A stretch of DNA of 38,522 bases from a virus. The position numbers were made by a program, and so were the translations under genes. Where the stretch lies: IMG/VR virus record IMGVR_UViG_3300048029_000152, positions 1 through 38,522 of that record; one strand, written 5' to 3'. A model generated the notes under the pieces. It saw only the letters and a list, made by a program, of their open reading frames with translations. It did not search any database and was not told where the DNA came from. Of the stretch, positions 17,270 through 37,607 are shown piece by piece. Position 1 is the stretch's first letter, and every line of letters starts with the position of its first letter.

Positions 17270-17285
17270 ACTTATGTTACCGCAT
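17270..17285 (+). promoter_or_regulatory. Putative phage RNA polymerase promoter, copy 1
   Basis: ACTTATGTTACCGCAT is one base different from the 16-bp motif ACTTATGTTACCCCAT found at four other block boundaries, all on the + strand. It lies in the 93-bp gap between coat protein and the next gene, only 12 bp before the ATG at 17298, with the ribosome binding site AAGGAG immediately after the motif. If transcription starts at its 3' edge, the mRNA leader would be very short. It would drive the tail, fibre and lysis block. Confidence 0.65.
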
Positions 17286-17297
17286 TAAGGAGTAATC

Positions 17298-17609
17298 ATG
17301 TCTGCAAAAGACTTGGATCTTCTGGGGGTCAATACGACCTTCGTAGAAGACAACACTGGCCTATTGGCTAAACACCAACAAGAAATCCCACGCTGGCATC
17401 TAGACAATCTGCGTTACATCAGAGACAGCAGCTTGGATACCACAGAGGGTGACACAATGCGTATAGCATCTATCCCGGTAGCCATTGTTGAGCAGTGGCA
17501 GCGTGAAGGGTTCGACATATACGACAAGAACGTAACGCCAAGGGAAATACTTACAAGACTGCGTAACCAAGATCTGGACGCATTCATCACAACTAAAAAG
17601 AGGATCTAA
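17298..17609 (+). CDS. Structural-module protein of unknown function (103 aa)
   Basis: A 103-residue soluble protein with no membrane segment, first in the block after the coat gene. Notable segments are VNTTFVEDNTGLLAKHQQEIPRWHLDN, SLDTTEGDTMRIASIPVAIVEQWQREGFDIYD and PREILTRLRNQDLDAF. Similar small proteins sit directly downstream of coat genes in marine podoviruses, where their job is not established; a head-completion or decoration role is possible. The start is well defined by AAGGAG at 5 bp. The stop overlaps the next ATG (TAATG). Confidence 0.65.
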   Translation: MSAKDLDLLGVNTTFVEDNTGLLAKHQQEIPRWHLDNLRYIRDSSLDTTEGDTMRIASIPVAIVEQWQREGFDIYDKNVTPREILTRLRNQDLDAFITTKKRI

Positions 17610-17872
17610 TGCCACCAGCAGCTGGGAAGAAGTTCAGTAAAACTATCAGGAACAAAAAGACCGGACGCAAGAAGACCGTCAGCTATGGTGCTAAAGGTTA
17701 CACGATAGCACCAGGCACTAGTAAGGGTGACAGTTATTGTGCTCGTTCTAATGGTCAGATGAAGAAGTTCCCAAAGTCAGCAAAAGACCCTAATAGCCCA
17801 TTAAGACTAAGCCGGAAGAAATGGAAATGCTCCGGTTCTAAATCAAGAAGAGGAAAGTCAAGCAATGCCTAA
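17609..17872 (+). CDS. Very basic small protein, possible DNA-binding virion protein (87 aa)
   Basis: An 87-residue protein with roughly one third Lys/Arg: KKFSKTIRNKKTGRKKTVSYGAKGY, then GTSKGDSYCARSNGQMKKFPKS and a C-terminal RKKWKCSGSKSRRGKSSNA. Two cysteines are present. It is the first of three consecutive small basic proteins (next at 17865 and 17954). Similar basic proteins between coat and adaptor genes are common in marine phage genomes and are usually uncharacterised. Likely roles are DNA compaction inside the head or coat decoration, both inferred from charge. It is coupled to its neighbours on both sides (TAATG upstream, 8-bp overlap downstream). Confidence 0.65.
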   Translation: MPPAAGKKFSKTIRNKKTGRKKTVSYGAKGYTIAPGTSKGDSYCARSNGQMKKFPKSAKDPNSPLRLSRKKWKCSGSKSRRGKSSNA

Positions 17873-18136: not shown

Positions 18137-18748
18137 ATGAACTACGGCAACATAAAAACACACTTTAACGATTTGCTTAATCGTAGTGACATAACTGCAA
18201 GTCTAACCACTACTTTTATTGATCAGGGTATATCACGTATACAAAGGCAGCTGCGTACACCTTTGAATGAAAAGGTAAAGACATACAGCATAACAGCCAA
18301 TACGCCCTCACTAACGCTGCCTGCAGACTTCTTAGAGATAATTAGTTTGTACTACAACCAGTATGAGCTGCAGCGTGTTCCTATGTCTAAATTTAGAGAA
18401 TACACCTTTTCCACTTACAAAGGTAGCCCTCAGTATTTCACCCGGCAACAAGAAGACTTATTGCTATACCCAACACCGGAATCTGGAAGCGTAGTTCTCT
18501 ATTACTATGGAGAGTTTGACGCTATGACTGCAGATGCTGATGAAAATGCGCTAGCAGCTGTAGCCAGCGATTTAATCATCTATGCCGGTCTTGGGTATGC
18601 AGCTGATTACTATTTAGATGAGAGAGCATCAGTATTCGAGCAAAAGTACACACAGTTCCTCACTGAAATCCAAGAACAAAGTAATGACCAGGAGTTGAAC
18701 GGTGGGGTTCAGCAGATACAGCCTGCTTACGAATATATGGAATATTAG
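18137..18748 (+). CDS. Head-tail adaptor / tail tube A-like protein (203 aa)
   Basis: The protein reads [41 protein letters not shown], then a beta segment [48 protein letters not shown], and a helical end ([42 protein letters not shown]). This layout of an N-terminal helix pair, 'LP.Dfle...v..n', 'l.l.P.P....v.l.YY', and a C-terminal '...dlliYaal..Aa.yl.d....yeq.Y' is the signature of T7 gp11/P22 gp4-like adaptors that sit under the portal. Length (203) fits. AAAGGTAGGA precedes the ATG. It stands 14 kb (on this strand) from the nozzle gene at 1216, separated by the whole head module. Confidence 0.85.
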
Positions 18749-18750: not shown

Positions 18751-21700
18751 ATGGCAAAAACAGGCTTCTTTCAAAACAGTGGCTCAACAGCCACCACAGA
18801 AAATGACATTGATACCCAAGTCACATTAGCCCAGACAGCAGCAACAAATGCACAGAACAGCGAAACTGCAGCAGAGACCGCACAAGTTGCATCAGAGAGT
18901 GCAAGAGACACTGCAACCATCAAGGCAACTGAAGCGTCCAACAGCGCATCTGCTGCCTCCACAAGTGCTTCTAATGCATCATCTGCAGTCTCAACTAAGT
19001 TTGGAGACATTCAGACAACCACAACTACAGGGGCAGCAGGTTCAAACGCAGCCGTAAGCTATACTGATTCTACAACCACATTTGCTTTTACAGTGCCTCA
19101 AGGGGCTACTGGAGCTACCGGAGCACAAGGCATCCAAGGGGCAACTGGTGCGACAGGAGCACAAGGCATCCAAGGGGCTACTGGAGCTACAGGTGCAGCA
19201 GGTACTGATGGAAGTGATGGTGATGCAGCAACCATTGCAGTAGGCTCAGTAACAACAGGGGCTGCAGGTTCTGCAGCAACAGTCACTAATGTAGGCTCAT
19301 CGTCTGCAGCGACTTTTAACTTTAGTATTCCTCGAGGTGACACTGGAGCTACTGGTGCACAAGGGAGTCAAGGTATCCAAGGCGCAACAGGGGCAACTGG
19401 AGCTACTGGTGCACAAGGCATCCAAGGTATCCAAGGTGTTGCAGGGGCTGATGGAAGTGATGGAAGCACAACCTTTATAGGTTTAACCGATACACCATCA
19501 TCATTTACAGCTAGTAAATTCTTAGCAGTAAATAGTGGCGGTACTGCTGTTGAATTAGTTGATGCGCCTAGTGGTGGTGGTGGTGGTAATGCTACAACCC
19601 TAGACAGCCTAGACAGCACCCAGTTTTTGCGTAGTGATGCGGCAGATACAAAGACCAGTGGAAATTTAAGATTTAACGATAGCGTGAAAGCAACATTTGG
19701 AACAACAGATGATGATTTACAAATATTCCACTCAGGTACAAACTCATTTATTCAAGATTTAGGAACAGGAAATCTTTATATTACGAGCAATGGTACGCAG
19801 ATTTTATTAAGAAACACAGCAGATAACGAAGATTTAGCAAAGTTTATTAATGGTGGCGCAGTAGAACTATACCACGATTCAAATCTCAAGGTTTCAACTA
19901 CTAGCACTGGAATGTCAGTCACAGGCACTTTACAAGCAGGGATATTTAAAACAGATGCAACCCCTAGTGCGAGTAGCATATTTAACACCTCTACTAATTT
20001 ATATCCGCTTTTGATTTCAAGAGGTGACGATGAAACCCAAGTTTTGCAAATCGGTGTAGATGATGCACAAGTAATTTTTAATTCCTTGCAAGATGAGCAA
20101 TATGGTGGATTTCTATTTACTTCTGAAGCTGACGGAGTTGGTACTAGAAACAGGCTTGTTATAGATAATGGTGATGGGGATATCTCTTTTTATAATAATA
20201 CTGGCGCAAACAGAGACTTTTACTGGGATGCGACTAATTCTAGACTAGGAATTAACAATACTTCTCCATCAACTGCGCTTGATGTAAATGGTGACCTCAC
20301 CCTTACCTCAACAGATGCTGGTGCTACAGAAAATCCTACTTTAGACCTTTACAGAAACAGTTCTTCACCAGCAGACCAAGACATTATTGGTCATATAAAC
20401 TTCAGCGGTGAGAATGATGCTGATGAAAAGATAGTCTATGGTGAGATACAAACTAGAATAAGAGATATGACTGATGGCACAGAAAATGGTGCGATAGAAA
20501 CCTACGTTGAAACAAATGGTAGTTTACAACTTTACTCAGTTCATCAAGATGGTGAATCTCAATTTTATAAAGATGTGCAAATAATAAGTAATGATGCTGG
20601 GTCTACAGAAAACCCAACTTTACAACTATACAGAAACAGTGCTAGTCCAGCCGTAAGTGACTTTGTTGGTACAATTATGTTTTCTGGTGAAAACGATGCT
20701 AACGAAAAACTACAGTATGCAGAAATACAAGCACAAATATCAGATGAGACAGATGGCACTGAGGATGGATCGTTATATCTACAAGTTAGAAACAATGGCT
20801 CTTTACTTTCTGCAGTAGCTATTTCAGGTGCTGCAAAAAGAGTAAATGTTGCCTCTGACTTTGATTTATTTTTACAAGAAGATGCAACAATTAGATTTGA
20901 GGGAGCTACGTCTAATGACTTTGAAACGACCCTCACTGTCACCGACCCCACAGCCGATAGAACCATTACCTTACCCGATGCCTCTGGCACTGTTCTTCTA
21001 AATACTGGCAATCAAAGCATTACTGGCGGTTTAACAACGACTGCGGCTGATGGGTCTGGGACACTTAATATTGTTAGTTCCGATAACAATACTAATTCGG
21101 GTAACAAGATTGCGTTTTTTGGTGCTGGTCGTACAGACACAGACGAAGAAATGGCTTTCATCAAACCACTTCTTACATCGAACAGTGGCGGGGCTGGTAA
21201 CGTTCAAGACGGACACCTTACTTTCGGCACATTTGGTAATGAACGTATGCGCATAGCATCAGGCGGCAATGTTGGCATTGGGACGACTTTGCCCGATGGA
21301 AATATGCATATTTTTAACAGTTCCGCTGGAACAGTTACAGCCCCAACCGATGCTAATGAATTAGTACTGGAATCTGCCGCGAATGTTGGTATGTCGTTTT
21401 TAACAGCTAATAGTAGTATTGCACGAATTAAATTTGGTGACCCCGATGCGACTAATTCTGGTGTTATTGCTTACAACCACTCTGACGATTCACTACGTTT
21501 TAACGCCAACGGTGCAGAACGTATGCGCATCAACAGTAGTGGCAATGTTGGCATCGGTACAACCGCACCTGCCGATAAGCTACACATTTATAAAGGTGCT
21601 TCTGGCAAGTCAAGTTTCTCTTCTAACACTGCTATTCTTATTGAAGATAATGTGGCAGCAGCACTTCAGTTTGCAACACCCAACACCGTTAATCAACAAA

Positions 21701-22191
21701 TCTTATTTTCTGACCCTGAAAGTAACACTTCAGGCAAAATTCAATATCAGCATAGCACTAATCTCATGACTTTTGATACAGACGGTGATGAAAGTATGCG
21801 GATAACTTCTGGTCATACAGTCGTAGGTAGGTCTGAAGGTGGCACTGCAAATCGCGTTAGTTTCACTCAAGGTTCTGCAAAGTCTTGGGTAACTTTTGAC
21901 ATGGATTCAAATAATGCAATCCTTGATGACTATAATGTTTCGAGTTTAACGGATAATGCAACAGGAAAAAACACCGTCAATATTGATAATAATATGAACA
22001 ACGTAAATTATGGAATAACATTTGGGTTTGAAGATAATTCATCAAATGTTAATGCCGTAAAGCTACAAGAAGGTCAAATTCCTACTACTGGCGCATTTAA
22101 GGTACAAGGTGGTGCTTTTCAAAACGGTAGTACAAATACTCAGTTTGATATAAATCGTACTTATTGTGTAACCCACGGTAGGCAAGCATGA
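18751..22191 (+). CDS. Collagen-like tail fibre protein (1146 aa)
   Basis: A long host-recognition fibre. Residues 1-90 hold a Thr/Ala/Ser-rich coiled coil ([30 protein letters not shown]). Residues about 113-235 contain collagen-type Gly-X-Y runs ([12 protein letters not shown] repeats), interrupted by two GAAGSxAxV segments. Residues about 275-1030 are beta-helix-like repeats of the '[13 protein letters not shown]', 'NVGIGTT.P...LHI' and 'ERMRI.S.GNVGIG' types common in marine phage fibres. An internal 93-residue duplication starts at residues 521 and 614. The end ([24 protein letters not shown] onward) is a separate tip domain. The ATG follows the adaptor stop by 2 bp with a weak ribosome binding site, so coupling is likely. 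The stop overlaps the next start (ATGATGG). Confidence 0.9.
19090..19456 (+). repeat. Collagen-like coding repeats within the fibre gene
   Basis: The DNA here repeats units such as GGAGCTACCGGAGCACAA, GGCATCCAAGG and GGGGCAACTGG with small changes, encoding GAT/GAQ/GIQ triplets in two blocks (about 19099-19206 and 19338-19456). These short, near-identical repeats can expand or contract by slippage or recombination, changing fibre length. Confidence 0.8.
20311..20820 (+). repeat. Tandem internal duplication of a 93-codon fibre segment
   Basis: Residues from 521 ([20 protein letters not shown]) and from 614 ([20 protein letters not shown]) are diverged copies, spaced 279 bp apart. Matching later segments are [17 protein letters not shown] versus [17 protein letters not shown] and [19 protein letters not shown] versus [19 protein letters not shown]. 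The divergence shows an old duplication that extended the fibre shaft. Confidence 0.75.
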
Positions 22192-22634
22192 TGGATTGGA
22201 GAAACACAAAACTCATAGATAGAATTGAATGGGCTAGTCAAAACCTAAAACCCTTCAAAACAGAATATTGTGTTGTCTATGAAGACATAGACATGGGTTG
22301 TTCCGCTGTACTATATCCTAGTTCTCACAAGATGGCGGCTTTGATGCATGGCGGGATACATCCACCTGCATGGGTAAAAATCAAACTAAAAGAAGATGAA
22401 CAGCATCCTGATTTCGTAAGACACTCTGATTGGAATGGACACTTACTGCATGAGACAGAACCAATGCAAGCACTCACAGAAGAAGAAGCGATTGAACATT
22501 TGATTCAGACCGATATACCAAAATCCATATGGGAAACTTGGGATAAAGGCAACAGACCAAAGATGGTTATTTGTAGAAAAAACCAGTTACCACAATCAAG
22601 AGAGTGGCGCAACGCATGGAGATTGGCGGCATGA
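22188..22634 (+). CDS. Tail-fibre-associated / assembly-type protein (148 aa)
   Basis: A soluble 148-residue protein directly coupled to the fibre stop (ATGATGG; start may be at 22188 or 22191). The first half includes [31 protein letters not shown], and the end reads [24 protein letters not shown]. The 'vicR.dqLP.dR.frnAW' ending is familiar from small proteins following tail fibre genes in marine phages, some of which are treated as tail assembly or fibre chaperones. The next gene begins with a related PSDRLFRDAWVLNG segment. A chaperone for the long fibre is a reasonable inference; no enzyme motif is seen. Confidence 0.6.
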
Positions 22635-23014
22635 CAGATGTAGAACCAACAACAATCATTATAGATAAGAATGATGCATCCATTGATGCTAGTACAGCAA
22701 CTATACCTAGCGACAGACTATTCAGAGATGCTTGGGTTTTAAATGGCACAGTAATCACAGAAGATTTGGATGCGGCGAAGGACATATTTAGAAATAAAAT
22801 ACGTGAAGTAAGAACACCTTTGCTTGAAGCAGAAGATGTAGTCTACATGAAAGCATTGGAGGCTGATGATGCAACCGCAAAGGCGGCTTCAGTAACAAAG
22901 AAAAATGCACTAAGAGATGCACCTGCCGCACAAGCTATCACAGATGCAACAACAATAGATGAACTCAAAGCGGCTTGGAATGCAAGCTTACTTGGCACTA
23001 GCCCTTACGCATAA
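22631..23014 (+). CDS. Tail assembly-chaperone-like protein (127 aa)
   Basis: I place the start at ATG 22631, which overlaps the preceding TGA (ATGA) and has GGAG 9 bp upstream; a GTG at 22604 would add nine residues. The protein has PSDRLFRDAWVLNGTVITEDLDAAKDIFRNKIREVRTPLLEAEDVVYMKALEADD followed by an Ala-rich helix. The '.dR.fRdAW.l.g..i..D...A......iR..R.p.Le.lDv.ymkale' pattern is shared with a family of phage proteins placed after tail fibres and often called tail fibre assembly or chaperone proteins. Function is inferred from family pattern and position. Confidence 0.65.
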   Translation: MTDVEPTTIIIDKNDASIDASTATIPSDRLFRDAWVLNGTVITEDLDAAKDIFRNKIREVRTPLLEAEDVVYMKALEADDATAKAASVTKKNALRDAPAAQAITDATTIDELKAAWNASLLGTSPYA

Positions 23015-23023
23015 GGATTTCTG

Positions 23024-23200
23024 ATGGATACACAAGCACAACTGGTAGCACACGAGCGTGAGTGTGCACTACGCTACGAGTATGTGCAGAATAAGCTAGA
23101 AGGTCTTGAAAAACGCATGTGGCGTTTAGAAGGGCTGATTATGGCAAGCACAATTACAGTAATAGGAGCAGCAATTATGGTGGTAACTCTTATTTTGTAA
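23024..23200 (+). CDS. Small XhlA-like membrane protein (58 aa)
   Basis: A 58-residue protein: a charged helical region (residues 5-38, AHERECALRYEYVQNKLEGLEKRMWRLEG) followed by one strong membrane segment (residues about 39-58, IMASTITVIGAAIMVVTLIL) running to the stop. This coiled coil plus C-terminal anchor layout is that of XhlA/haemolysin-like phage membrane proteins, which often accompany holins and endolysins. It lies at the start of the lysis cassette, with AAGGATTT upstream of the ATG. A helper of lysis or an antiholin-type protein is likely, by layout and context only. Confidence 0.65.
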   Translation: MDTQAQLVAHERECALRYEYVQNKLEGLEKRMWRLEGLIMASTITVIGAAIMVVTLIL

Positions 23201-23208
23201 GGTGATGA

Positions 23209-23658
23209 ATGATAGATCCGGTTTCTGCTTTTAGCGGTTTATGTGCAGCACATGCAACTATATCTAAAATATGCAAAATGGGATCAGATTTATCTAAGGC
23301 ACAAGGTGCCATTATGCGATATGCCAATGCAGAGGCAGAGCTGACTGTAGGAGCTGCAAGAGCAAAGAAAAAGCGATTCGGCAACATCATGGATAATGCT
23401 TTGGAATCTCATTTTAGAGAAGAAGACCAAAAGCGCATGAAAGATGAGCTACGATCCATGTTTATGCTGTATGGCGCACCTGGTCAATGGGAACGCCTCC
23501 AAGCCACAATAGCCAGGGCAAGAGCTGAGAAAAAGAAAGAGCTAGAAGAGGCTCTTCATAAAAGAGACCTAATAATAAATATAAGTGTAGCAGCTGCCAC
23601 AGTATCTGTTGGTGTAGTTTGTATTTACGTTTGGGTTATGTTTTTAAAAGGATGGTAG
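23209..23658 (+). CDS. Lysis-region protein with C-terminal membrane anchor (149 aa)
   Basis: The first 45 residues (MIDPVSAFSGLCAAHATISKICKMGSDLSKAQGA) fit a pattern seen in many marine phages ('DPvsA...a..a...i......G.d...'). Residues about 95-120 form a charged helix (RLQATIARARAEKKKELEEALHKRD) and residues 121-145 a single membrane segment ending in VWVMFLKGW. It sits between the XhlA-like gene and a 37-residue membrane peptide, upstream of lysozyme. Tail-anchored topology leaves most of it in the cytoplasm, so it does not match a normal i-spanin, which has an N-terminal anchor. It may regulate holin action or be membrane-associated. The next gene overlaps its end by 7 bp. Confidence 0.6.
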   Translation: MIDPVSAFSGLCAAHATISKICKMGSDLSKAQGAIMRYANAEAELTVGAARAKKKRFGNIMDNALESHFREEDQKRMKDELRSMFMLYGAPGQWERLQATIARARAEKKKELEEALHKRDLIINISVAAATVSVGVVCIYVWVMFLKGW

Positions 23659-23765
23659 CATTGGAACCGGTAGTAATAATCGAATTGATAATACATGTCC
23701 TAGTCTTAGTTGGCGTATGGATAAACACCAGCATTAACATTGTGCATAGGATAAACAAGAAATGA
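23652..23765 (+). CDS. Tiny membrane peptide in lysis cassette (37 aa)
   Basis: A 37-residue ORF, MVALEPVVIIELIIHVLVLV then GVWINTSINIVHRINKK, nearly all hydrophobic up to residue 24 with a short basic tail. It overlaps the previous stop by 7 bp and its TGA overlaps the lysozyme ATG (AATGA at 23761-23765), so ribosomes can pass straight on. AAAAGGATGG upstream gives a ribosome binding site. The precise stitching between two genes supports it as coding. It may be a pinholin-like or regulatory peptide; nothing more can be said. Confidence 0.5.
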   Translation: MVALEPVVIIELIIHVLVLVGVWINTSINIVHRINKK

Positions 23766-24175
23766 ACTTAGAAGCCATACGTAATCGTTTAGTATTAGAA
23801 GAAGGTCTCAAGCTAACCCCCTATAAATGTACAGCAAACAAGCTGACAATAGGCGTAGGTAGAAACATAGAAGACCGGGGAATATCTAACGAAACAGCTA
23901 TGCAGATGCTTGATGAAGACATAGATATCATGGTCAACGAGCTGCGTCAGAATCTATCTTGGTTCGACAAGCAAAACGATGCGATCCAGGGTGTACTAAT
24001 AGACCTATGTTTTAATATGGGCATTAGTCGGCTTCTGATGTTCGTACAGACGCTTAAGCTAATAGAGCAGGGTCATTATACTATGGCTGCTGACGAGCTT
24101 CTAGACAGCAAGTATGCTGCTATGCTGCCAGCTCGTAGTAAGCGCAATGCAGAAATACTAAGAGCACAGAGCTAA
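23762..24175 (+). CDS. Endolysin, T4-type lysozyme (GH24 muramidase, 137 aa)
   Basis: This enzyme cuts the MurNAc-GlcNAc bond of peptidoglycan at the end of infection. The active-site block EEGLKLTPYKCTANKLTIGVGRN matches the phage lysozyme pattern Glu-8aa-(Asp/Cys)-5aa-Thr: Glu14, Cys23 and Thr29. The Cys in place of the T4 Asp20 is a known natural variant that keeps activity. Later parts (QNDAIQGVLIDLCFNMGISRLLMFVQTLKLIEQGHYTMAADELLDSKYAAMLPARSKRNAEIL) match the C-terminal lobe, including the 'aR..R.aei' end. There is no signal peptide or signal-arrest segment, so release needs a holin; the candidate follows directly (TAATG). Length 137 is slightly short of T4 (164). Confidence 0.93.
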   Translation: MNLEAIRNRLVLEEGLKLTPYKCTANKLTIGVGRNIEDRGISNETAMQMLDEDIDIMVNELRQNLSWFDKQNDAIQGVLIDLCFNMGISRLLMFVQTLKLIEQGHYTMAADELLDSKYAAMLPARSKRNAEILRAQS

Positions 24176-24558
24176 TGTGGACAGCTCTTATATCACCAAT
24201 TAGCCAGCTAGCCGGCAGCTTCATACAAGGGCAGGTAAGCAAGCAAGAGGCTAAGAGCAAGCTAGCCCTTACAGAAGCAGAAGCTAAAGCTGAGATCATG
24301 AAAACTGCAGCCACCCATGACAGCAAGTGGGAACTGATAATGGCTGAGTCTACCAAAGGCTCGTGGAAAGACGAGCTTGTTACAATAGTAGTGCTAGTGC
24401 CGGTGGTACTAGTCTTTATCCCTGGAATGGAGGAAGTAGTTAAAAATGGGTTCAACCGCCTTAGTGAGTTACCTGATTGGTATCAGTATCTTGTGTTTTT
24501 GGTATGCAGTGCTGCATTGGGTATTAAAGGCCTTGATAAGTTCAAAGGAAAGAAATGA
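24175..24558 (+). CDS. Holin, gene-transfer-release (3TM/PF11351-like) type (127 aa)
   Basis: The N-terminal region MWTALISPISQLAGSFIQGQ is amphipathic to hydrophobic and is followed by a charged helix (EAKSKLALTEAEAKAEIMKT). DSKWELIMAESTKGSWKDELVTIVVLVPVVLVFIP (TM about 67-84) and YQYLVFLVCSAALGIKGLDKF (TM about 102-120) complete it. This order matches the 'Holin of 3TMs, for gene-transfer release' family, whose 'W......S..SWkDE.......P....f.P' block is diagnostic. It would form the inner-membrane lesion that lets the lysozyme out. It is coupled to lysozyme (TAATG) and to the next small gene (ATGATGA). Confidence 0.88.
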   Translation: MWTALISPISQLAGSFIQGQVSKQEAKSKLALTEAEAKAEIMKTAATHDSKWELIMAESTKGSWKDELVTIVVLVPVVLVFIPGMEEVVKNGFNRLSELPDWYQYLVFLVCSAALGIKGLDKFKGKK

Positions 24559-24764
24559 TGAGTGCAGCAACAATATTGGAATACAAACTAGTACCGAGGT
24601 TTATGATGCTCGTTATGACGTTTATGTACATAAGGACATTGGAGTGGTTCATGAGTATCCCCATGGATACCATCACACCAGAAGCAACCGCTCTTACAGC
24701 AACAGTCACTGGAGCTATGACCGGGGCTTTCGCAGTGTGGCTTAGTTCTGAAGGCAAAAAGTAA
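24555..24764 (+). CDS. Small two-TM membrane protein, possible second holin/antiholin (69 aa)
   Basis: A 69-residue protein with two likely membrane segments: residues about 12-30 (VPRFMMLVMTFMYIRTLEW) and about 46-63 (LTATVTGAMTGAFAVWL), joined by SIPMDTITPEA, with a charged SSEGKK end. Proteins with 'R.mml.mt.m..r..eWfm...... p...a....vt.amtgaf..wl' appear after holins in marine phages. The layout is that of a small holin or antiholin. Its start overlaps the holin stop, and its last codons enter the terminator-like hairpin at 24759. Confidence 0.7.
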   Translation: MMSAATILEYKLVPRFMMLVMTFMYIRTLEWFMSIPMDTITPEATALTATVTGAMTGAFAVWLSSEGKK

Positions 24765-24790: not shown

Positions 24791-24836
24791 ATATACCGCT
24801 TTACTCTGTGTCCGAATCGTGGTACTCTAGGTCACC

Positions 24837-30025: not shown

Positions 30026-30452
30026 AGGTATCAAACACGGATACCGTTCTGGCCTTGAGGTTAGCACTTCTAAGCACCTCGAATCTGAGGGTCTAGAGGT
30101 ACTCTACGAAACAGACCGTATCGCGTTTGTTTACCCAGCACGAAAAGCACACTATACCCCGGATTTCAAGCTGCCTAAACCAGGCGGCTTTTTTTATGTC
30201 GAGACTAAGGGCAGGTGGCTCACACAAGATAGGCACAAGCATTTGCTTATCAGAGAGCAGCTGCCCCACCTCGACATCCGGTTAGTGTTCAGCAATGCGA
30301 ATGCCAAGCTCTACAAGGGTTCTCCAACTACTTACGCAGCCTATTGTGAAAAGCATGGCATTCCATACGCACACAAAGTCATTCCACAAGAATGGCTAGA
30401 GGAGAGCAAATATGCCAACAGAATGGATAAGGGAGCAGCCCACCCCAGCTGA
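29976..30452 (+). CDS. Endonuclease I, Holliday junction resolvase, T7 gp3-like (158 aa)
   Basis: The sequence aligns by eye with T7 gp3 over most of its length: YRSGLE (Glu28), LYETDR (Glu45), YTPDF (Asp63) and VETKG (Glu76, Lys78) are the catalytic residues, and RHKHLLIREQLPHLDIRLVFSNANAKLYKGSPTTYAAYCEKHGI is almost colinear with the T7 protein. The enzyme resolves branched replication intermediates and degrades host DNA. Both ATG 29976 and ATG 29982 are possible starts, neither with a clear ribosome binding site, so coupling to SSB is likely. The stop overlaps the primase-helicase start by 41 bp. Confidence 0.95.
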   Translation: MTMLKNKQKKPSQATSRGIKHGYRSGLEVSTSKHLESEGLEVLYETDRIAFVYPARKAHYTPDFKLPKPGGFFYVETKGRWLTQDRHKHLLIREQLPHLDIRLVFSNANAKLYKGSPTTYAAYCEKHGIPYAHKVIPQEWLEESKYANRMDKGAAHPS

Positions 30453-32052
30453 GTTAGACGAAGGTAGATTCATACGTCACACCAATTGTAATGACTGTGG
30501 ATCGTCTGACGCAAAAGCGATTTATGACAATGGAGATAGAGGATATGCCACGTACTGTTTCAGCTGCACCAACTTCGAGACGGAACTATCTAGCGAAACA
30601 GCTGCAGCAAAACCAATTCCGGCAAAGGCGAGTCCAAAGCAAAAAGATTTACTCAAGGGAGAAGTCAGACAAATATCTTCTAGAGGACTGAGCCAGGACA
30701 CCTGCCAAAAGTACAAATATGAAGTAGCCATGCACAACGGTGAGCCGGTGCAGGTAGCAAACTATTACAACACAACAGGCCAGCTCGTAGCACAAAAGGT
30801 ACGCAGCAAAGACAAGAGCTTCAAGATACTAGGTGACGGTAAGAAGCTACCACTGTTTGGCAGCCAAAGGTGGGCATCAGGTGATCGCATAGTAATTACA
30901 GAAGGCGAAATAGACTGTCTCAGCATTGCACAAGTGATGCCTAAGACACCTATAGTAAGCCTACCACAAGGTGCCCAGGGAGCTGTAAAGGCTATTAAAG
31001 ATAACTGGGATTATGTGGCACAGTTTAAAGAAGTCATATTATGTTTTGATATGGATGACCCAGGGCGTGAGGCTGCCCAGGCTGTTAGTGAGCTGCTGCC
31101 GATTGGTACAGCTAAGATAGCACATTTACCACTTAAAGACGCTAACGAGTGTCTCATACAAGGAAAGCAAAAAGATATCGTCTCAGCGATCTTCGAGGCC
31201 AAGACTTATAGGCCGGATGGGATCGTAGCTGCAGCCGATATCAGACAGGCTCTCAGTGTGGTCGATGCAGCTTCTGCCATTAGCTACCCATACGACAGGC
31301 TAAATGAAATAACACTTGGTTTGCGTAAAGGTGAGCTGGTCACTGTCACTGCCGGTTCTGGTATCGGCAAGTCAACGCTGGTGCGTGAGCTGGCCTATCA
31401 CCTACACACAGGCGGCAACAAAGTAGGCATGATAATGCTTGAAGAAAGCAACAAGCGCACTGTTTTGGGTATGCTTGGTATTCACCTTAACAAAAACATT
31501 ACAGTAGACCGCAGCTTAGTAGAAGAAGCCGACTTATATAATGCCTTCGATGAGGTCTTTGCTAATACACCGCTGTATATGTATGACCACTTCGGTAGCA
31601 CAGAGGTCGAGACCATTCTGCAGCGCATCCGTTACATGGTTAAAGCGTTGGACGTTGAGTGGATCATACTAGACCACATCAGCATTCTTATATCTGGCTT
31701 GGCTGTTGCAGACGAAAGAAAAGCAATCGACATAGCCATGACAGCACTACGCACACTCATTAGTGAGCTGGGCATAGGCATGATTATGGTTAGCCATTTA
31801 AAACGACCAGAGGGCAATGCTGGTCATGAAGACGGTCAGAAGGTACGCCTAGGACAACTCCGGGGCAGCCATTCTATCGCACAGTTATCAGACATCTGTA
31901 TTGGACTACAGGTAGACCCGGATGAGCCAGACGGTGACTCGAGGCTGCTGCAGGTACTCAAGAACAGATTTACTGGTGAGACAGGCTTCGCTGGGAGAGT
32001 GAAGTACAGTCGTGACAGCGGCAGGCTTTTGTCTGTTGCAGACACTTTTTAA
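30412..32052 (+). CDS. DNA primase-helicase, T7 gp4-like (546 aa)
   Basis: A two-in-one replication protein. The zinc-binding primase module has CNDC (Cys26, Cys29) and CFSC (Cys49, Cys52). The TOPRIM/RNA polymerase domain has VITEGEIDCLS (Glu164) and CFDMDDPGREAA (Asp213, Asp215). A linker leads to the ring helicase domain with Walker A GSGIGKST (315-322), EESNKR (Glu344 region), Walker B WIILDHISIL (Asp421) and VSHLKRPEG. Length 546 against 566 in T7. It unwinds DNA and lays down primers for the phage polymerase. GAGGAGAG lies 6 bp before the ATG. Confidence 0.95.
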   Translation: MPTEWIREQPTPAELDEGRFIRHTNCNDCGSSDAKAIYDNGDRGYATYCFSCTNFETELSSETAAAKPIPAKASPKQKDLLKGEVRQISSRGLSQDTCQKYKYEVAMHNGEPVQVANYYNTTGQLVAQKVRSKDKSFKILGDGKKLPLFGSQRWASGDRIVITEGEIDCLSIAQVMPKTPIVSLPQGAQGAVKAIKDNWDYVAQFKEVILCFDMDDPGREAAQAVSELLPIGTAKIAHLPLKDANECLIQGKQKDIVSAIFEAKTYRPDGIVAAADIRQALSVVDAASAISYPYDRLNEITLGLRKGELVTVTAGSGIGKSTLVRELAYHLHTGGNKVGMIMLEESNKRTVLGMLGIHLNKNITVDRSLVEEADLYNAFDEVFANTPLYMYDHFGSTEVETILQRIRYMVKALDVEWIILDHISILISGLAVADERKAIDIAMTALRTLISELGIGMIMVSHLKRPEGNAGHEDGQKVRLGQLRGSHSIAQLSDICIGLQVDPDEPDGDSRLLQVLKNRFTGETGFAGRVKYSRDSGRLLSVADTF

Positions 32053-32077
32053 AAACATAAACCAATAGGAGAGCAGC

Positions 32078-32440
32078 ATGTTTCACAATGTTGAGCGTGA
32101 AACCTACCGGTATGTCCAAAGGAGAGAGGACAATAACAAAGGCAGGCAGCGCAAATACCTAGAGCTAATGTGTGAGTACAACCAGCTAGAACCTCACGAG
32201 GCACACGACATCAGAGAACTAGCAACCCATGAGAAAGCACCAAATGATGCGGTGTTTAGGACAGGGGGCAATATTAACGGCAAATGGTCACCTGGTCGGT
32301 GGATTTGCATGTGGGAGCTATCCCCTGTCAACGACTTTGTAATTTGGTCACACAAAAGAATAATCGAGGAGAGCAAAGATTATGAACAACGTAAATCTAT
32401 TAGAGCAAAACAAGGAACGAGAAAACTGGCAGCAATCTAA
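32078..32440 (+). CDS. Unknown protein between helicase and DNA polymerase (120 aa)
   Basis: I do not recognise this gene. It encodes 120 residues, basic and without membrane segments: HNVERETYRYVQRREDNNKGRQRKYLELMCEYNQLEP, then ELATHEKAPNDAVFRTGG, a Trp-containing block KWSPGRWICMWELSPVNDFVIWSHKRI and a Lys/Arg-rich end. AGGAGA lies before the ATG. It overlaps the DNA polymerase start by 59 bp. Position in the replication operon suggests a replication or host-takeover accessory. Confidence 0.6.
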   Translation: MFHNVERETYRYVQRREDNNKGRQRKYLELMCEYNQLEPHEAHDIRELATHEKAPNDAVFRTGGNINGKWSPGRWICMWELSPVNDFVIWSHKRIIEESKDYEQRKSIRAKQGTRKLAAI

Positions 32441-34208
32441 TTTATTCCAGCGTATCGTATTCGACATAGAAACTAACGGTTTAGATCCAGACGTTATCCA
32501 TTGCATGGTCATAAAGTGTCTGGACAGCCATAGAATTAAGAAATTTACACAAGAAAACATGCAGGTAGGTTTGGATTACTTATCTGCAGCTAGAAATATT
32601 ATTGGGCACAACATAATAGCCTACGATATTCCCAGTCTCCAAAAAGTCTACCCGGGCTTCCATGTGGAGCCATCAGCAACCGTGGACACGCTAGTGCTCT
32701 CCCGGCTAATCCATGCTGACCTGATGCAAGAAGATTATGAGCAGCGATTCAGTAGCAGTTTGAACCTCCCAAAAAAGCTAATGGGTTCGCACTCGCTTGG
32801 TGCCTGGGGCATCAGGTTAAATCTTCATAAGGGTGACTATGATGGGGGCTGGGATACTTTCAGCCAAGAAATGTTAGATTATTGTGAGCAAGATGTATTC
32901 GTAAACGAGGCGTTGTACGCTAAGTTTAATGGTAATGAGAAGAATAACTTTTATCATGCGTCTCGTTCCTTTGCTAACAAGCTTGCATGGGTTTGCAATA
33001 GAGTAGGTAAGTTTGGTTGGTATTTTGATAAACCAGCTTCTTACAAGCTATATGGTGAGCTTGCTTACGAGCGATCAGAACTAGAGATTGAGCTGCATAG
33101 TTTATTTCCTAACTGGAATGTCGAGGAAATATTTATACCCAAAGTAAACAACAGCAAGCTGGGTTACGTGAAGGGTGAGCCTTTTATTAAAGTCAAAGAG
33201 GTACAGTTTAATCCTAACAGTAGAAGACACATCGAGCACTGCCTTCGATCTAAGTATGATTGGCAGCCTAAGTTATTAACGGCTGGTGGTCATGCACAGA
33301 TAGATGAATCTGTCCTGGACGAGCTACCATATCCAGAAGCAAAAAAGCTAGCTAAATTCTTTATGCTGCAGAAAAGACTTGGTCAGCTGGCTGAGGGTAA
33401 GCAAGCTTGGATCAATCTCGTTGGTGCTGATAGCAAGCTGCATCACACAATTATACCCCAAGGTACTGTAACGCACAGAGCTGCACATCGTAGCCCCAAC
33501 TTAGCCCAGGTACCTGCTACCCGGCTGCCATGGGGCAAGAAATGCCGAAAGTTGTTTACTGTACGTGATGGTTATAGGTTGCTAGGTGCCGATTTATCTG
33601 GGTTAGAACTTCGTTGCCTAGCACACTATTTGGATGACCCAGAGTACACTCAAGAGCTGCTGGAAGGCGATATACATACCGCCAACATGAAGGCTGCAGG
33701 TCTTAAAACTAGAGACCAGGCAAAGACCTTTATATATGCGTTTCTGTATGGAGCTGGGGCTGCAAAGATTGGTGAAGTTGCTGATGGTGGAGCTGCAGAA
33801 GGTAAGCAGCTGCTCGATAGGTTCAATGAGAACATGCCAGGCATTAGACGGTTACGTAAAGCAGTAGAAGAGGCTGCAGAGCGTGGCTTTTTGTATGGGC
33901 TAGATGGCAGGCAGATAAAGATAAGAGCCAAGCACAAAGCCCTCAACACGCTTTTACAAGGGGCTGGAGCCACTATCTGTGGCACCTGGTTAATCAAGAT
34001 ACAAGAAGAGTTAGACAATCAGCAGCTGGACGCAAACATCTGTGCCTGGGTGCACGATGAAGTGCAGATAGAGGTCAGAGAAAAGGATATAGAACATGTC
34101 GGTAATATCGTTCGAGAATGCGCGAAAGCAGCTGGAGAATCGTGGCTCATTAAAATCCCAATCGCTGCAGAATACACAAGCGGAAAAACCTGGGCAGACA
34201 CTCATTGA
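32382..34208 (+). CDS. DNA polymerase, family A with 3'-5' exonuclease, T7 type (608 aa)
   Basis: The replicative polymerase. The exonuclease domain shows VFDIETNGL (Asp28, Glu30), IIGHNIIAYDIPSL and YCEQDVFVNEALY. The polymerase domain shows AHRSPNLAQVPA, motif A LGADLSGLELRCLA (Asp404), motif B RDQAKTFIYAFLYGAG and motif C CAWVHDEVQIEV (Asp559). Length 608 against 704 in T7; the difference is in the central region, where the T7 thioredoxin-binding loop sits, so processivity may not use thioredoxin in the same way. Start at 32382 has AGGAGAGC nearby and leaves about 24 residues before the exonuclease domain. Confidence 0.96.
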   Translation: MNNVNLLEQNKERENWQQSNLFQRIVFDIETNGLDPDVIHCMVIKCLDSHRIKKFTQENMQVGLDYLSAARNIIGHNIIAYDIPSLQKVYPGFHVEPSATVDTLVLSRLIHADLMQEDYEQRFSSSLNLPKKLMGSHSLGAWGIRLNLHKGDYDGGWDTFSQEMLDYCEQDVFVNEALYAKFNGNEKNNFYHASRSFANKLAWVCNRVGKFGWYFDKPASYKLYGELAYERSELEIELHSLFPNWNVEEIFIPKVNNSKLGYVKGEPFIKVKEVQFNPNSRRHIEHCLRSKYDWQPKLLTAGGHAQIDESVLDELPYPEAKKLAKFFMLQKRLGQLAEGKQAWINLVGADSKLHHTIIPQGTVTHRAAHRSPNLAQVPATRLPWGKKCRKLFTVRDGYRLLGADLSGLELRCLAHYLDDPEYTQELLEGDIHTANMKAAGLKTRDQAKTFIYAFLYGAGAAKIGEVADGGAAEGKQLLDRFNENMPGIRRLRKAVEEAAERGFLYGLDGRQIKIRAKHKALNTLLQGAGATICGTWLIKIQEELDNQQLDANICAWVHDEVQIEVREKDIEHVGNIVRECAKAAGESWLIKIPIAAEYTSGKTWADTH

Positions 34209-34470
34209 CGAAGAGCTGGACAGAATAGCAGAAAACACCGGCAGAATGTTCAACGTCATACTTAAGGCACTAGAGAAAGGCTTTAAGTGCAAAGGACAGT
34301 TCGCAAGGGAAAATGCAATCTTTGTAGCAGCTGCTGCCCAGATTGGAACAATCACAACACAATTTGATGACACAAACTTTGGTGACACCTGGTGGTGTAC
34401 AGAGGATGGTCTCGATTGGCTTAAGGAGATGACAGAATATGCAGAAGAATACTTTAAAGATTCTGATTGA
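34096..34470 (+). CDS. Unknown protein overlapping DNA polymerase (124 aa)
   Basis: A 124-residue ORF starting 113 bp before the polymerase stop, with AAGGAT upstream of the ATG. The first 35 residues, encoded in the overlap, look low in structure (SVISFENARKQLENRGSLKSQSLQ). The rest, outside the overlap, looks like a folded domain: LIDEELDRIAENTGRMFNVILKALEKGFKC, then ENAIFVAAAAQIGTITTQFDDTNFGDTWWCTEDGLDWLKEMTEY. I do not recognise the family. It is followed by the exonuclease gene with a 32-bp overlap. The start could lie further downstream. Confidence 0.6.
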   Translation: MSVISFENARKQLENRGSLKSQSLQNTQAEKPGQTLIDEELDRIAENTGRMFNVILKALEKGFKCKGQFARENAIFVAAAAQIGTITTQFDDTNFGDTWWCTEDGLDWLKEMTEYAEEYFKDSD

Positions 34471-35185
34471 TGCAGACATATATGCATATCGAAGCTGCTC
34501 TGCAGCGGAAGAAGAGACAGACTGGGGCGATGATATATGGTCACTAAGTACTGACCTTAAAGTTGCAAAAGATATATTTGCACACGAGATCGATAAGTGC
34601 ATAGAAACACTTGGCAGCAGTGACGTACTGTTGTGCTTTACTAGCGGCACAAACTTCCGCAAGACAATCAACCACACATATAAATCAGGCCGTAAGAAAA
34701 CACGTAAACCTGTAGGCTATGTAGCTTTGATAGACTGGTGTAAAGAACAGTACAACACGTTCAGCAAGCCAGGTCTCGAGGCAGATGATTGCCTTGGTAT
34801 TTTAGCTACAAATCCTGGCAATGTAGGCAAGTGTATAATCGTCAGTGACGATAAAGACCTAAAAACAATCCCAGGCAAGCTATACAGACCTACCCAGGAT
34901 GAGCGTCTTGAGGTGTCTGAAAAGGATGCTGACAAGTGGTTTTATACTCAATGTCTGACTGGCGATAGCACTGACGGCTATCCGGGCTGCCCTGGCATAG
35001 GCACAGTTAAAGCAGATAAGCTGCTAGCTGGTAGGCCAGCCTGGAGTGTAGTCGAGCAGGCTTTCATTAAGGCAGGTAAGACTAAAGACGATGCACTTAT
35101 GCAAGCTCGTATGGCTCGTATTCTCAGGCACTCTGACTGGGACGCAGACAAGCAGCAGCCAATACTATGGAGACCTGCCGCATGA
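34439..35185 (+). CDS. 5'-3' exonuclease, T7 gp6 / FEN-like (248 aa)
   Basis: Contains the acidic metal-binding motifs of the 5' nuclease family: ILIDADIYAY near the N-terminus, KPGLEADDCLGILA, VSDDKDLKTIPG and GDSTDGYPGCPGIGTVKADKLL (the last is the helix-hairpin-helix DNA-binding segment). It removes primers and degrades host DNA in T7-like phages, and supplies 3' single strands for recombination. Length 248 compares with 300 in T7 gp6. AAGGAG lies about 10 bp before the ATG. Its stop overlaps the next start (ATGA at 35182-35185). Confidence 0.92.
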   Translation: MQKNTLKILIDADIYAYRSCSAAEEETDWGDDIWSLSTDLKVAKDIFAHEIDKCIETLGSSDVLLCFTSGTNFRKTINHTYKSGRKKTRKPVGYVALIDWCKEQYNTFSKPGLEADDCLGILATNPGNVGKCIIVSDDKDLKTIPGKLYRPTQDERLEVSEKDADKWFYTQCLTGDSTDGYPGCPGIGTVKADKLLAGRPAWSVVEQAFIKAGKTKDDALMQARMARILRHSDWDADKQQPILWRPAA

Positions 35186-35481
35186 AACATGAAGAGTACA
35201 TGAAAGAGCTAGCCAAGCAAGCTAACAAACAGTCCGACAATGTAGTTGTCCGTCCGTCACATTATGAGCGATGGGAAGCGATAGAGCCTATCTGTTTCAT
35301 CATGCTTAACCACGTAGAGTTTTGGCGTGGCAACGTAGTCAAATACGTGATGAGAGCCGGTGCCAAAGACTATGACGGCATGAATGCAAAAGACAGTGAA
35401 ATACAGGATCTGCAGAAAGCCATGCGCTACTGCCAGATGCGAATTAATCAAATTGAAGGGAAACAACCAAATGCTGAGTAA
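35182..35481 (+). CDS. DUF3310-family protein (99 aa)
   Basis: The block VRPSHYERWEAIEPICFIMLNHVEFWRGNVVKYVMRAGAKDYDGM, then EIQDLQKAMRYCQMRI, is the DUF3310 pattern ('HY....iEpi.fi......f..GNviKYv.Ra..K.. ..DL.KA..Yl...i'). These proteins are common in phage replication modules and sometimes labelled nucleotide kinase, without real evidence. I choose ATG 35182, which overlaps the exonuclease TGA and has GGAG upstream, over ATG 35167. It precedes ribonucleotide reductase, so a link to nucleotide metabolism is possible but not shown. Confidence 0.85.
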   Translation: MKHEEYMKELAKQANKQSDNVVVRPSHYERWEAIEPICFIMLNHVEFWRGNVVKYVMRAGAKDYDGMNAKDSEIQDLQKAMRYCQMRINQIEGKQPNAE

Positions 35482-37411
35482 CCACCTACCAACCGACTAT
35501 CAGTCATTCATACACAAGTCACGCTATGCAAGGTGGTTAGACAATGAAGGCCGGAGAGAGACCTGGGCAGAGACAGTAGCCAGATACTTCGACTACATGA
35601 CTGCACATCTCAAAGACAAGCATGACTTCCATGTGTTCAAAGAGCAGCGCGAAGAACTGGAAGAGGCTGTACTAAACCTGGACATAATGCCTAGCATGAG
35701 GGCTGTTATGACGGCTGGAGCAGCCTTAGACCGCAATCATGTAGCAGCATATAATTGCAGCTATATACCTATAGATGACCCTCGTGCCTTCGATGAGCTG
35801 CTATACGTGCTCATGTGTGGCACTGGTGTTGGGTTCAGCGTTGAGCGTAACAATGTAGATGAGCTGCCTATCGTGCCTAGCATGATGGAAAACGATTACG
35901 GGATAATACTTGTTCAAGACAGTAAAGAAGGCTGGGCTTTTGCTTACCGGGAACTGTTGTATTATTTATATCAAGGGCTAGTGCCCTCTTGGGATTTAAG
36001 CTTGGTAAGACCAGCTGGTGCCAGGCTAAAGACCTTTGGCGGTAGAGCATCCGGAGCTAAACCATTAGATGACCTATTTAAGTTTACTGTTGATACATTC
36101 TTGAAGGCTGCAGGCAGACGTTTGTATCCTATCGAGGTGCATGATATCTGCTGCAAGATTGGCGAAGTAGTGGTCGTTGGCGGTGTAAGGCGTTCAGCTC
36201 TTATCTCTCTGTCTAATCTCAATGACGACCAGATGCGACATGCTAAAGTGGGTGATTGGTGGAACACTGCAACCCAGCGCAGCATGGCAAACAACAGTGC
36301 CACATATAAACATAAGCCTGACATGGAGACGTTCTTACGTGAATGGGTTGCTCTGGTTGAATCTAAGTCCGGTGAGCGTGGCATGTTTAACCGCGAGGCA
36401 GCCAAGCTTAAAGCAGCTGAGAATGGCAGAAGAGAATCTGGATATGACTTTGGCACAAACCCATGCAGCGAGATAATCTTAAGACCCTACCAGTTCTGTA
36501 ACCTGACTGAGGTAGTAGTACGCAGCAGCGACAGCATACAAGACCTTAAGCGCAAGGTACGCCTGGCAACTACACTAGGCACCTGGCAGTCAACACTGAC
36601 AGACTTCAAGTACCTACGCAGCGTATGGAAGCATAACACTGAAGCAGAGAGACTGCTTGGTGTATCTCTCACCGGTATCATGGACAATGAGATACTGTCC
36701 GGGCGTTCTGTTACTTACGGTAAGAACATCGAGGGCATCCTGACTGAGCTGAAAGATGCAGCTGTAGATGTTAATGCAGTACTGGCAGATGCTATTGGTA
36801 TTCCCCGGTCAGCTGCTATCACATGTATCAAACCAAGTGGTACTGTAAGCCAGCTGGTTAACTCAGCTAGCGGCATACATGCAAGGCACAGCCAATACTA
36901 TATACGTACAGTCAGAGGCGACAACAAAGACCCACTAACGATGTTCCTAAAAGACCAAGGCATACCAGCAGAGCCTGATGTAATGAAGCCAGACAACGTG
37001 ACGGTCTTTAGCTTCCCTATCAAGAGCGATGGCAACTGCGTAACTCGTAACGACATGACTGCCCTTGAACAGTTGGACATGTGGATGCTGTATGCCAAGC
37101 ATTGGTGTGAGCATAAGCCCTCAGTAACTATCAGTGTACGTGATAGTGAGTGGCTAGCTGTTGGCAGCTGGGTGTGGGATAACTTCGACATGTGCAGTGG
37201 CATCAGCTTCCTGCCTCACAGTGAGCACACCTATCAGCAAGCACCATACCAGGAGTGCGATGTAACCATGTACAATGAGATGCTAGAGACAATGCCACCG
37301 TCTATCAACTGGGCAAGCTTGCAAGCATACGAACAAGACGACAACACAACTGGTAGCCAGGAGTTATCATGTGCTGCTGGTGTGTGTGAGGTGGTAGACA
37401 TTGCATCTTAA
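35471..37411 (+). CDS. nrdJ: Class II (B12-dependent) ribonucleotide reductase (646 aa)
   Basis: Makes deoxynucleotides for phage DNA synthesis. Start at ATG 35471 (MLSNHLPTDYQSFIHKSRYARW), with AAGGGAAA upstream. Cys96 (YNCSY) and the radical Cys332 in NPCSEI, with Asn330 and Glu334, form the active site; GGVRRSALISLSN and CIKPSGTVSQLVNSASGIHARHSQYY are further class II signatures. The C-terminal redox pair is Cys634/Cys639 (CAAGVC). No class I small subunit or class III glycyl-radical tail is present, and the length fits monomeric NrdJ/RTPR enzymes. It would need cobalamin from the host. Similar reductases occur in marine podoviruses such as roseophages. It ends the replication block. Confidence 0.94.
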   Translation: MLSNHLPTDYQSFIHKSRYARWLDNEGRRETWAETVARYFDYMTAHLKDKHDFHVFKEQREELEEAVLNLDIMPSMRAVMTAGAALDRNHVAAYNCSYIPIDDPRAFDELLYVLMCGTGVGFSVERNNVDELPIVPSMMENDYGIILVQDSKEGWAFAYRELLYYLYQGLVPSWDLSLVRPAGARLKTFGGRASGAKPLDDLFKFTVDTFLKAAGRRLYPIEVHDICCKIGEVVVVGGVRRSALISLSNLNDDQMRHAKVGDWWNTATQRSMANNSATYKHKPDMETFLREWVALVESKSGERGMFNREAAKLKAAENGRRESGYDFGTNPCSEIILRPYQFCNLTEVVVRSSDSIQDLKRKVRLATTLGTWQSTLTDFKYLRSVWKHNTEAERLLGVSLTGIMDNEILSGRSVTYGKNIEGILTELKDAAVDVNAVLADAIGIPRSAAITCIKPSGTVSQLVNSASGIHARHSQYYIRTVRGDNKDPLTMFLKDQGIPAEPDVMKPDNVTVFSFPIKSDGNCVTRNDMTALEQLDMWMLYAKHWCEHKPSVTISVRDSEWLAVGSWVWDNFDMCSGISFLPHSEHTYQQAPYQECDVTMYNEMLETMPPSINWASLQAYEQDDNTTGSQELSCAAGVCEVVDIAS

Positions 37412-37607
37412 GGTCAAATACATCAAGTCAGGCCAGGGCTTAGACCCTGGCTGGCATGAGCTGCCCTTAATGGGGCACCATGGAGCCAGTGGTCATGCTA
37501 TAGCAGTACATAAGATAGATGGTGAGACACACGAGATGCCAGTCAAAAGTGAAGGCTATCCTCGTGTATCTCATAATTACTTATGTTACCCCATAAGAGA
37601 AACTTAA
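37401..37607 (+). CDS. Small unknown protein after the reductase (68 aa)
   Basis: A 68-residue ORF beginning with TTG at 37401, inside the last codons of the reductase, after a GAGGTGG ribosome binding site six bases upstream. It reads HLKVKYIKSGQGLDPGWHELPLMGHHGASGHAIAVHK, then IDGETHEMPVKSEGYPRVSHNY. The composition is protein-like, with Gly/His-rich turns. The last ten codons overlap promoter copy 5. Without an ATG start and without a recognised family I treat it as probable only. Confidence 0.5.
   Translation: MHLKVKYIKSGQGLDPGWHELPLMGHHGASGHAIAVHKIDGETHEMPVKSEGYPRVSHNYLCYPIRET
37579..37594 (+). promoter_or_regulatory. Putative phage RNA polymerase promoter, copy 5
   Basis: ACTTATGTTACCCCAT, identical to copies 2 and 3, at the end of the replication block and overlapping the small ORF at 37401. 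It is followed by AAGAGAAAC. It would drive the methyltransferase and, across the circular junction, the fibre, ejection and head genes through to the coat gene. Confidence 0.65.

Follow-up and report, generated by a model that had tools for sequence, protein, structure and literature searches.

A repeated 16-bp motif marks candidate promoters of a T7-type RNA polymerase in an uncultured, integrase-bearing phage

Introduction

What role do five copies of a 16-bp motif, ACTTATGTTACCCCAT, play in a virus genome that encodes its own T7-type RNA polymerase (RNAP)? The genome is IMG/VR record IMGVR_UViG_3300048029_000152, a single virus record of 38,522 bp, which we analyzed over its whole length and hereafter call the window. 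Besides the polymerase it encodes a helicase-primase, a family A DNA polymerase, a ribonucleotide reductase (RNR) and a tyrosine integrase. An initial annotation had proposed that the copies are promoters of the encoded polymerase and represent a new promoter class. Layout, clade-specific variants and covariation with the polymerase all support the first proposal, and the copies are almost certainly promoters for the phage's own T7-type RNAP. The second proposal holds for the sequence but not for the architecture, which is that of T7; the promoters are not new in kind, because T7-like phages, LUZ100 included, have such promoters. What is new is an apparently sequence-specific upstream element that changes among close relatives along with the loop predicted to read it. 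A literature search by title and abstract start, with most subscription journals outside its coverage, returned no description of promoters in this phage group.

Results

Motif copies in the window

A scan of both strands with up to three mismatches found five matches, all on the + strand: exact copies at 24775, 26718 and 37579, a copy with base 13 changed from C to G at 17270, and a copy with base 16 changed from T to C at 29251. The count of three exact and two singly changed copies was thereby reproduced, and so was the judgement that five copies are not due to chance, as dinucleotide shuffles contained 0.37 matches on average, two at most, and five in 0 of 100 cases. The reversed (read-backwards) pattern had no match in the window.

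Four copies occupy gene boundaries that are shared with related phages, and we refer to them as P-int, P-RNAP, P-rep and P-late (Table 1). The earlier claim of a placement at block boundaries failed for the 17270 copy, which is internal to the structural block, some 65 bp past the capsid stop codon, and has no counterpart in the other records scanned. The polymerase start at ATG 26766 is supported by the relatives, while the mechanical list of open reading frames (ORFs) extends the gene to TTG 26694. The P-late copy overlaps the final codons of a small ORF (37401–37607).

Among the viral contigs, an exact 16-mer scan returned five stretches, with L013 (record L027) as the sole relative of the window; it is 92% identical in DNA over 4.9 kb and carries the identical motif at the P-late place. 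Neither tblastn nor blastn matched the other four exact-match loci (L009–L012) to the window over the stretches that were compared. Separately, a − strand match of 11 bases to the motif, possibly due to chance, lies at 252–267 (CTTATGTTACC), immediately ahead of the first tail gene.

Clade-specific variants at shared places

Relatives were obtained by searches with the window polymerase and then with its terminase. In one collection, 545 stretches encode a relative of the terminase, and 10 of the 22 checked for a window-type polymerase had a match. Each clade carries its own word within 120 bp upstream of the polymerase gene (18 loci) and within 90 bp downstream (reached by 16 of the 18): ACTTATGTTACCCCAT in the window, ACTTATGTCCCCCTA in L006, L007 and L008, ACTTATGTTGCCCCATAGC in L037 and L041, ACTTGTGTTCCCCCATAGC in the L034 group, ACTTSTGTTCCCCCCTAGC in L031 and L033, TGTTCACCCCTAGC in L030 and AAAGGTGTCCCACCCTAG in L032. 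In L038 the core motif is absent from the 90 nt after the RNAP gene, and a one-mismatch site lies further on (G020:2680).

When 13 records were scanned with their own words on both strands at up to three mismatches, all 41 hits had the same orientation as the polymerase gene: 13 at P-RNAP, 11 at P-rep, 8 each at P-int and P-late, and the 17270 copy of the window. Several of the records without a P-int variant are too short to reach that place. Because the words were derived from RNAP-adjacent sites or, in some records, from repeats noted along the locus, many of these hits are found by construction; the independent part of the layout consists of P-int in G009 and G010 and P-late in G009–G012, together with the fact that no stray hits occurred.

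Distant relatives, whose polymerases are 35–43% identical, show the same layout, complete in two genomes and partial in others. G032 has CTTCTGTCGTCCT and G037 has TGTGTCCACCT at four of four places, with P-rep of G037 shifted by one base after the core. G033 carries ACTTATGTCCACCCATT at three places and G028 GAATACTGTCCACCCATT at the same three; G034 has copies at three places and a repeat near the record end, and G026 also has three. In G036 one copy precedes the RNAP gene, a variant precedes the late genes, and a three-mismatch hit falls inside a gene. G025 and G030 have inverted late genes, preceded by a copy on the − strand (8085 and 4125, respectively); G030 has a second − strand copy at 8240 and looser hits within genes. 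Scanning related phages for the motif at equivalent blocks, a check suggested in the initial annotation, thus revealed variants of their own at shared places.

Covariation of the upstream element with the recognition loop

The motif aligns with positions −17 to −1 of T7 promoters in our inferred numbering; with TGT set at −12 to −10, 17 bp separate the motif start from ATAG or TAG in several clades. The T7 numbering reference is the record of a laboratory mutant clone, and the limits of the T7 promoter modules follow passages of PMC10138996 and PMC13029058, the latter giving −12 to −5 for one module.

We scanned the polymerase in sliding 15-residue segments against positions −18 to −13 of the motif, with overall polymerase distance as the control variable. 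The segment equivalent to T7 residues 85–103 came first in the G033 group (partial r 0.78, rank 1 of 809; n = 12), in the disjoint window family (0.77, 1 of 816; n = 13) and in all 34 sequences (0.53, 1 of 809), and it remained first after removal of near-duplicates (10 and 28 sequences). Permutations reached the maxima in 0 of 2000, 4 of 2000 and 0 of 500 runs, respectively, and other highly variable polymerase segments in the G033 group gave partial r values of −0.37 to 0.19. These sets exclude loci with partial polymerases (L008, L033, L182–L184) as well as L038, and L036 and L040 belong to the set of 34 but not to the window-family set; L182–L184 fit the pattern of loop and element by eye. 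The covariation suggests that the element at −18 to −13 is read by the equivalent of the T7 AT-rich recognition loop.

Fifteen loci, including L171 (G028) and L176 (G033), share a constant core, TGTCCACCC, and, in the 12 where it is present, a nearly identical specificity loop. Their −18 to −13 elements fall into seven types, each paired with one type of recognition loop: GAATAC with ESKNKGVGQPTSW (four loci), GTTTTG with xSKxGSxRxPSW (five), AACTTG with SQSKLKGRAFSW (two), TCTCTG with AVSVHGKNTSW, (G/T)ACTTA with SQKGIGNRPMKW, TAGTTA with EQKGKQNRPLKW, and GACAAG with the long loop of L182. Ten of the 15 loci have a third copy 1.7–10 kb from the RNAP gene, at P-int or P-late, that matches the own word with at most two mismatches; L171, L176, L177 and L178 have no P-int copy at this threshold.

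In two distant polymerase groups, loops of the form (H/N)RPxxW mostly pair with TTATG promoters; the loops DGRPFDW and DHRPMDW pair with TTGTG or TTCTG. There are hints in these pairings of a reading code.

Near-isogenic pairs

Of the 23 aligned positions at which the 97% identical polymerases of L171 and L172 differ, 13 fall in T7 90–107, one in the specificity loop and nine elsewhere; the promoters differ at six of six bases in −18 to −13 and at none in the core. Across about 6378–9497, every 60-bp bin of the two DNAs is at least 85% identical except the bin with the loop codons (60%), and at P-rep an 8-bp block is altered between otherwise nearly unchanged flanks; other diverged bins exist beyond this interval. 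Likewise, L171 and L176 differ at 13 of 19 loop positions versus 54 of 802 elsewhere (p 4e-11), and their promoters differ upstream only. Strong divergence of the recognition loop, then, goes with promoter changes confined to the matching half.

The converse also holds. L171 and L174 differ at 57 polymerase positions, none of them in the loop, and have the same promoter. A common promoter is found in further pairs with 92–98% identical polymerases and few or no loop differences (L037/L041, L177/L179, L034/L035, L006/L007), and L171 shares its promoter with L173, L174 and L175 under the same circumstances. The initial annotation had named near-identical polymerases without the motif as evidence that would speak against promoters; instead, pairs at 92–98% with matching loops share theirs.

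A natural contrast is provided by G008 and G014/G016: their primase-helicases are 97%, DNA polymerases 96%, RNRs 96% and integrases 95% identical, but their RNAPs only 72–75%, and each of the four kinds of site carries a different motif in the two.

Observations that weigh against a promoter function

Several results count against promoters read in this way. The two bases 3' of the motif are TA, AT, GG, GG and AA in map order, and this lack of conservation in the window genome makes the start base uncertain. The layout has gaps and surplus hits: G034 has no copy before the RNAP gene, G028 and G033 have no P-int, and no copy was found after the RNAP gene in G025, G030 and G036, while G037 has one additional match at 2327 and G026 has extra hits within the portal gene, which are explained by its nearly palindromic word.

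The covariation likewise shows a second peak in the window family (0.68 at T7 664), and label permutations are lenient for related sequences, as control proteins indicate. Single-stranded DNA-binding protein (SSB), endonuclease and primase-helicase reached maxima of 0.33–0.58, with SSB at a partial r of 0.50 in the G033 group (4 of 1000 permutations) and 0.58 in the window family (33 of 1000). Because the permutation values are lenient, we give greater weight to the rank, which recurs in two disjoint sets, and to the near-isogenic pairs. For the core at −9 to −3, segments of the specificity loop rank only 20–31 of 808–816, and kinship confounds this comparison. In most window-family clades, P-RNAP and P-rep of one genome differ at one or two of the six upstream bases, so reading of the upstream element would not be strict. 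Finally, other proteins of G008 and G014/G016 have diverged too (77, 77, 70, 59 and 41%), and only at P-int has the motif changed significantly more than its flanks (p 0.0026, versus 0.20 at P-late and 0.38 at P-rep).

The specificity loop did not emerge as the top correlate of the core, with segments at about T7 395, 166 and 550 scoring higher.

Alternative functions of the copies

Mycobacteriophage L5 silences its prophage through stoperators, asymmetric repressor sites in one orientation, and the copies might be operators of this kind, bound by the protein encoded at 26038–26622. An integrase and this weakly MarR-like protein are indeed encoded near the polymerase, the MarR-like proteins of G008 and G016 are only 41% identical while their motifs differ, and excerpts of PMC10134795 hypothesize that the MarR regulator of LUZ100 acts at sites flanking the promoter before its RNAP gene. 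Yet tblastn (E ≤1e-4) found no homologue of the protein in G009, G010 and G011, where an unrelated repressor elsewhere is possible; there, only 192–368 bp separate the integrase hit from the promoter, and the motif is nevertheless present at 4, 4 and 3 sites. Nor would a repressor explain how −18 to −13 tracks the recognition loop of the polymerase at residue level, and we regard this explanation as very unlikely.

Promoters of the host sigma-70 polymerase are harder still to credit. The copies do precede gene blocks in the correct direction, and a sigma-70-like match at 26619–26646 (10/12) lies upstream of the 26718 copy. However, across 20000–38522, which leaves four of the copies in view and 17270 outside, no + strand sigma-70-like match overlaps a copy; the only overlap is an opposite-facing − strand match (29261–29233) over the 29251 copy, and such matches number 24 versus 33.8 in shuffles. 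Host promoters would also not explain differing variants, matched to the own polymerase, amid nearly identical neighboring genes.

Elements of RNA processing, termination, recombination or replication have next to no probability, for although the P-RNAP copy can pair beside the ribosome-binding site (mean −9.6 kcal/mol in 17 genomes versus −3.6 for P-rep in 14) and the 24775 copy begins within a hairpin, the pairing occurs at P-RNAP and not at P-rep, and such elements have no need to covary with the recognition loop or to switch strand before inverted late genes.

We note two observations on RNA structure. Read-through RNA of the window (26718–26770) would allow the P-RNAP copy to base-pair with the RNAP gene's ribosome-binding site and start codon, and relatives show a similar pairing at P-RNAP. 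Covariation between the arms of this hairpin is weak: own pairs gave −9.6 and swapped pairs −8.8 kcal/mol, 543 of 20000 permutations were as good, and the own pair ranked first in only 2 of 17 genomes (the window and L006).

Genomic context

Table 1. Motif copies and associated features of the window
Feature	Coordinates	Strand	Description
Extra motif copy	17270–17285	+	After the major capsid gene; 28 bp ahead of the next gene
P-int	24775–24790	+	Exact motif copy; between lysis genes and tRNA-like attP candidate/integrase region
Phage attachment site (attP) candidate	24820–24898	+	tRNA-Arg(TCT)-like stretch between P-int and integrase; last 47 bases intact
Tyrosine integrase	25201–26037	+	
Weak winged-helix/MarR-like protein, candidate lysogeny regulator	26038–26622	+	MarR_2 E 0.012, HTH_29 E 0.0086, under curated cut-offs
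P-RNAP	26718–26733	+	Motif copy; begins 48 bp upstream of the polymerase ATG
T7-type single-subunit RNAP	26766–29249	+	phrog_414, PF00940; best structural matches T7 RNAP
Recognition-loop codons	26949–26993	+	Residues 62–76, AAAAQPCSHRPYSWL; aligned with the T7 AT-rich recognition loop
Specificity-loop codons	28815–28925	+	About residues 684–720; aligned with the T7 specificity loop
P-rep	29251–29266	+	Motif copy one base past the polymerase stop codon, ahead of replication genes
P-late	37579–37594	+	Motif copy past the RNR gene, ahead of tail/late genes across the contig ends

The AlphaFold2 model of the polymerase, built from 20 sequences (mean pLDDT 78.2), matches T7 RNAP with a Foldseek E of 2.2e-41; a model from six sequences (pLDDT 47) was not used. 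Among isolate phages, the best-ranked matches (best 60 of 2569) encode polymerases about 30% identical to that of the window, and all 2569 lie below 60%; a polymerase scan of the genome contigs returned no relative. The contig ends (1–190 and about 38330–38522) repeat each other over ~190 bp with a few differences by eye, which suggests that the genome is closed or has terminal redundancy. The translated end region includes NPPY, a motif of DNA adenine methylases.

The portal matches PF23899 SU10_portal (E 3e-180) and the adaptor PF24175 SU10_adaptor (E 1e-30). With an SU10-type portal/adaptor region (12765–14792 and 18137–18748) and T7-like replication and transcription genes, the gene set is chimeric. 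Of the features that define Autographiviridae, the phage-encoded single-subunit RNAP is present and the T7-type structural genes are not; because portal and adaptor are SU10-type, we do not file the phage under this family.

Between P-int and the integrase, the tRNA-Arg(TCT)-like stretch is probably attP. ARAGORN called no tRNA at 24820–24898, and an alphaproteobacterial metagenome-assembled genome (L188) has a tRNA-Arg(TCT) with identical last 47 bases, a hint at the host. CTGACTTCTAATCAGCAGGTTGGGGG recurs 3' of P-int in all eight window-family records displayed. If the stretch is attP, integration would separate P-int from the integrase gene, and P-int-driven integrase transcription would therefore occur only on the closed circle. 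Six other loci (L172, L179, L180, L182, L183 and L184) carry a different, reversed tRNA-like stretch in this place, which by eye looks like tRNA-Tyr; this suggests that the order of promoter, attP and integrase is kept with another attachment site.

Two further structures flank motif copies. A perfect hairpin, AAGTAACC-TTCG-GGTTACTT (24759–24778), overlaps the start of the P-int copy and is terminator-like on the − strand. Just upstream of P-RNAP, within 26619–26668, the sigma-70-like match, the best of the scanned region, is followed by a terminator-like hairpin and a T run; a host-driven, leaky supply of polymerase from this arrangement is possible.

Discussion

In the mechanism we propose for these promoters, the phage polymerase would bind the motif on the + strand from ~17 bp upstream of the start point. 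The recognition-loop equivalent would contact −18 to −13, as the covariation suggests, and by analogy with T7 the specificity loop and its neighbors would read TGT (−12 to −10) and the C-rich bases that extend to about −4; melting and RNA start would follow at the AT-rich 3' end. P-RNAP would close a positive loop in which the polymerase amplifies its own synthesis, P-rep would serve the replication genes, P-late the tail-to-lysis genes and P-int the integrase region. These four form the layout shared by the family, to which the 17270 site would be an addition within the structural genes.

We further consider it probable, at a clearly lower confidence than the promoter assignment itself, that −18 to −13 is read base by base, and that loop and element swap as alleles among near-identical phages, at all promoters, with specificity loop and core remaining fixed. 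Promoter specificity in T7, T3 and SP6 changes via the specificity loop. If our proposal is true, one phage group would contain incompatible transcription types that arise by a different route. For a large group of uncultured phages with an integrase, the data predict where promoters lie, and they supply naturally occurring polymerase/promoter pairs whose differences are mostly confined to one loop and six bases. Such pairs are candidates for orthogonal polymerase-promoter systems, and they make it testable how T7-type polymerases shift specificity and whether the loop reads sequence or only A/T content.

Among known phages, the closest include Pseudomonas phage LUZ100, described in excerpts of PMC10134795 as a T7-like phage with temperate features, for which a 17-bp motif and eight phage-specific promoters were mapped. 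According to the same excerpts, LUZ100 resembles the window in having an integrase and a MarR-like gene beside the RNAP gene and a promoter directly before it. It differs in its organization, given there as T7-like versus the SU10-type portal and adaptor of the window, and its promoters were measured, whereas those of the window are predicted from sequence. The cultured Roseobacter phage CRP-113 (OR420755; L186), which grows on host FZCC0023, shares the gene order MarR, integrase, RNAP, SSB, endonuclease, primase, DNA polymerase, exonuclease and RNR, and differs in its annotated T7-type head-to-tail, scaffold and tail-tubular proteins. A repeated GTTGCACCATAG-type word stands before (2971) and after (5500) its RNAP gene; at up to three mismatches, ATTAGGTTGCACCAT matches seven times on the + strand (2971, 5500, 7114, 12612, 16425, 20688 and 38045) and three times on the other. 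These repeats are likely the promoters of its polymerase. A term search of the main text of the CRP-113 paper (PMC11092137) did not return the word promoter.

The promoters of T7 itself offer the broadest comparison. In both systems a single-subunit polymerase is encoded in the same genome as an asymmetric element of ~17 bp oriented with the genes, and the best-matching family words share G−11, C−7, C−5, A−3, T−2, A−1 and G+1 with the T7 promoter TAATACGACTCACTATAG. The T7 record contains 14 matches (up to three mismatches) in 25 kb versus four or five sites per genome here. At the predicted melting and start region, ATAG or TAG occurs in several relatives, but no G is conserved at the start position in the window genome. 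Unlike in T7, the core is C-rich, and the bases at −18 to −13 are not merely A/T-rich but vary among close relatives.

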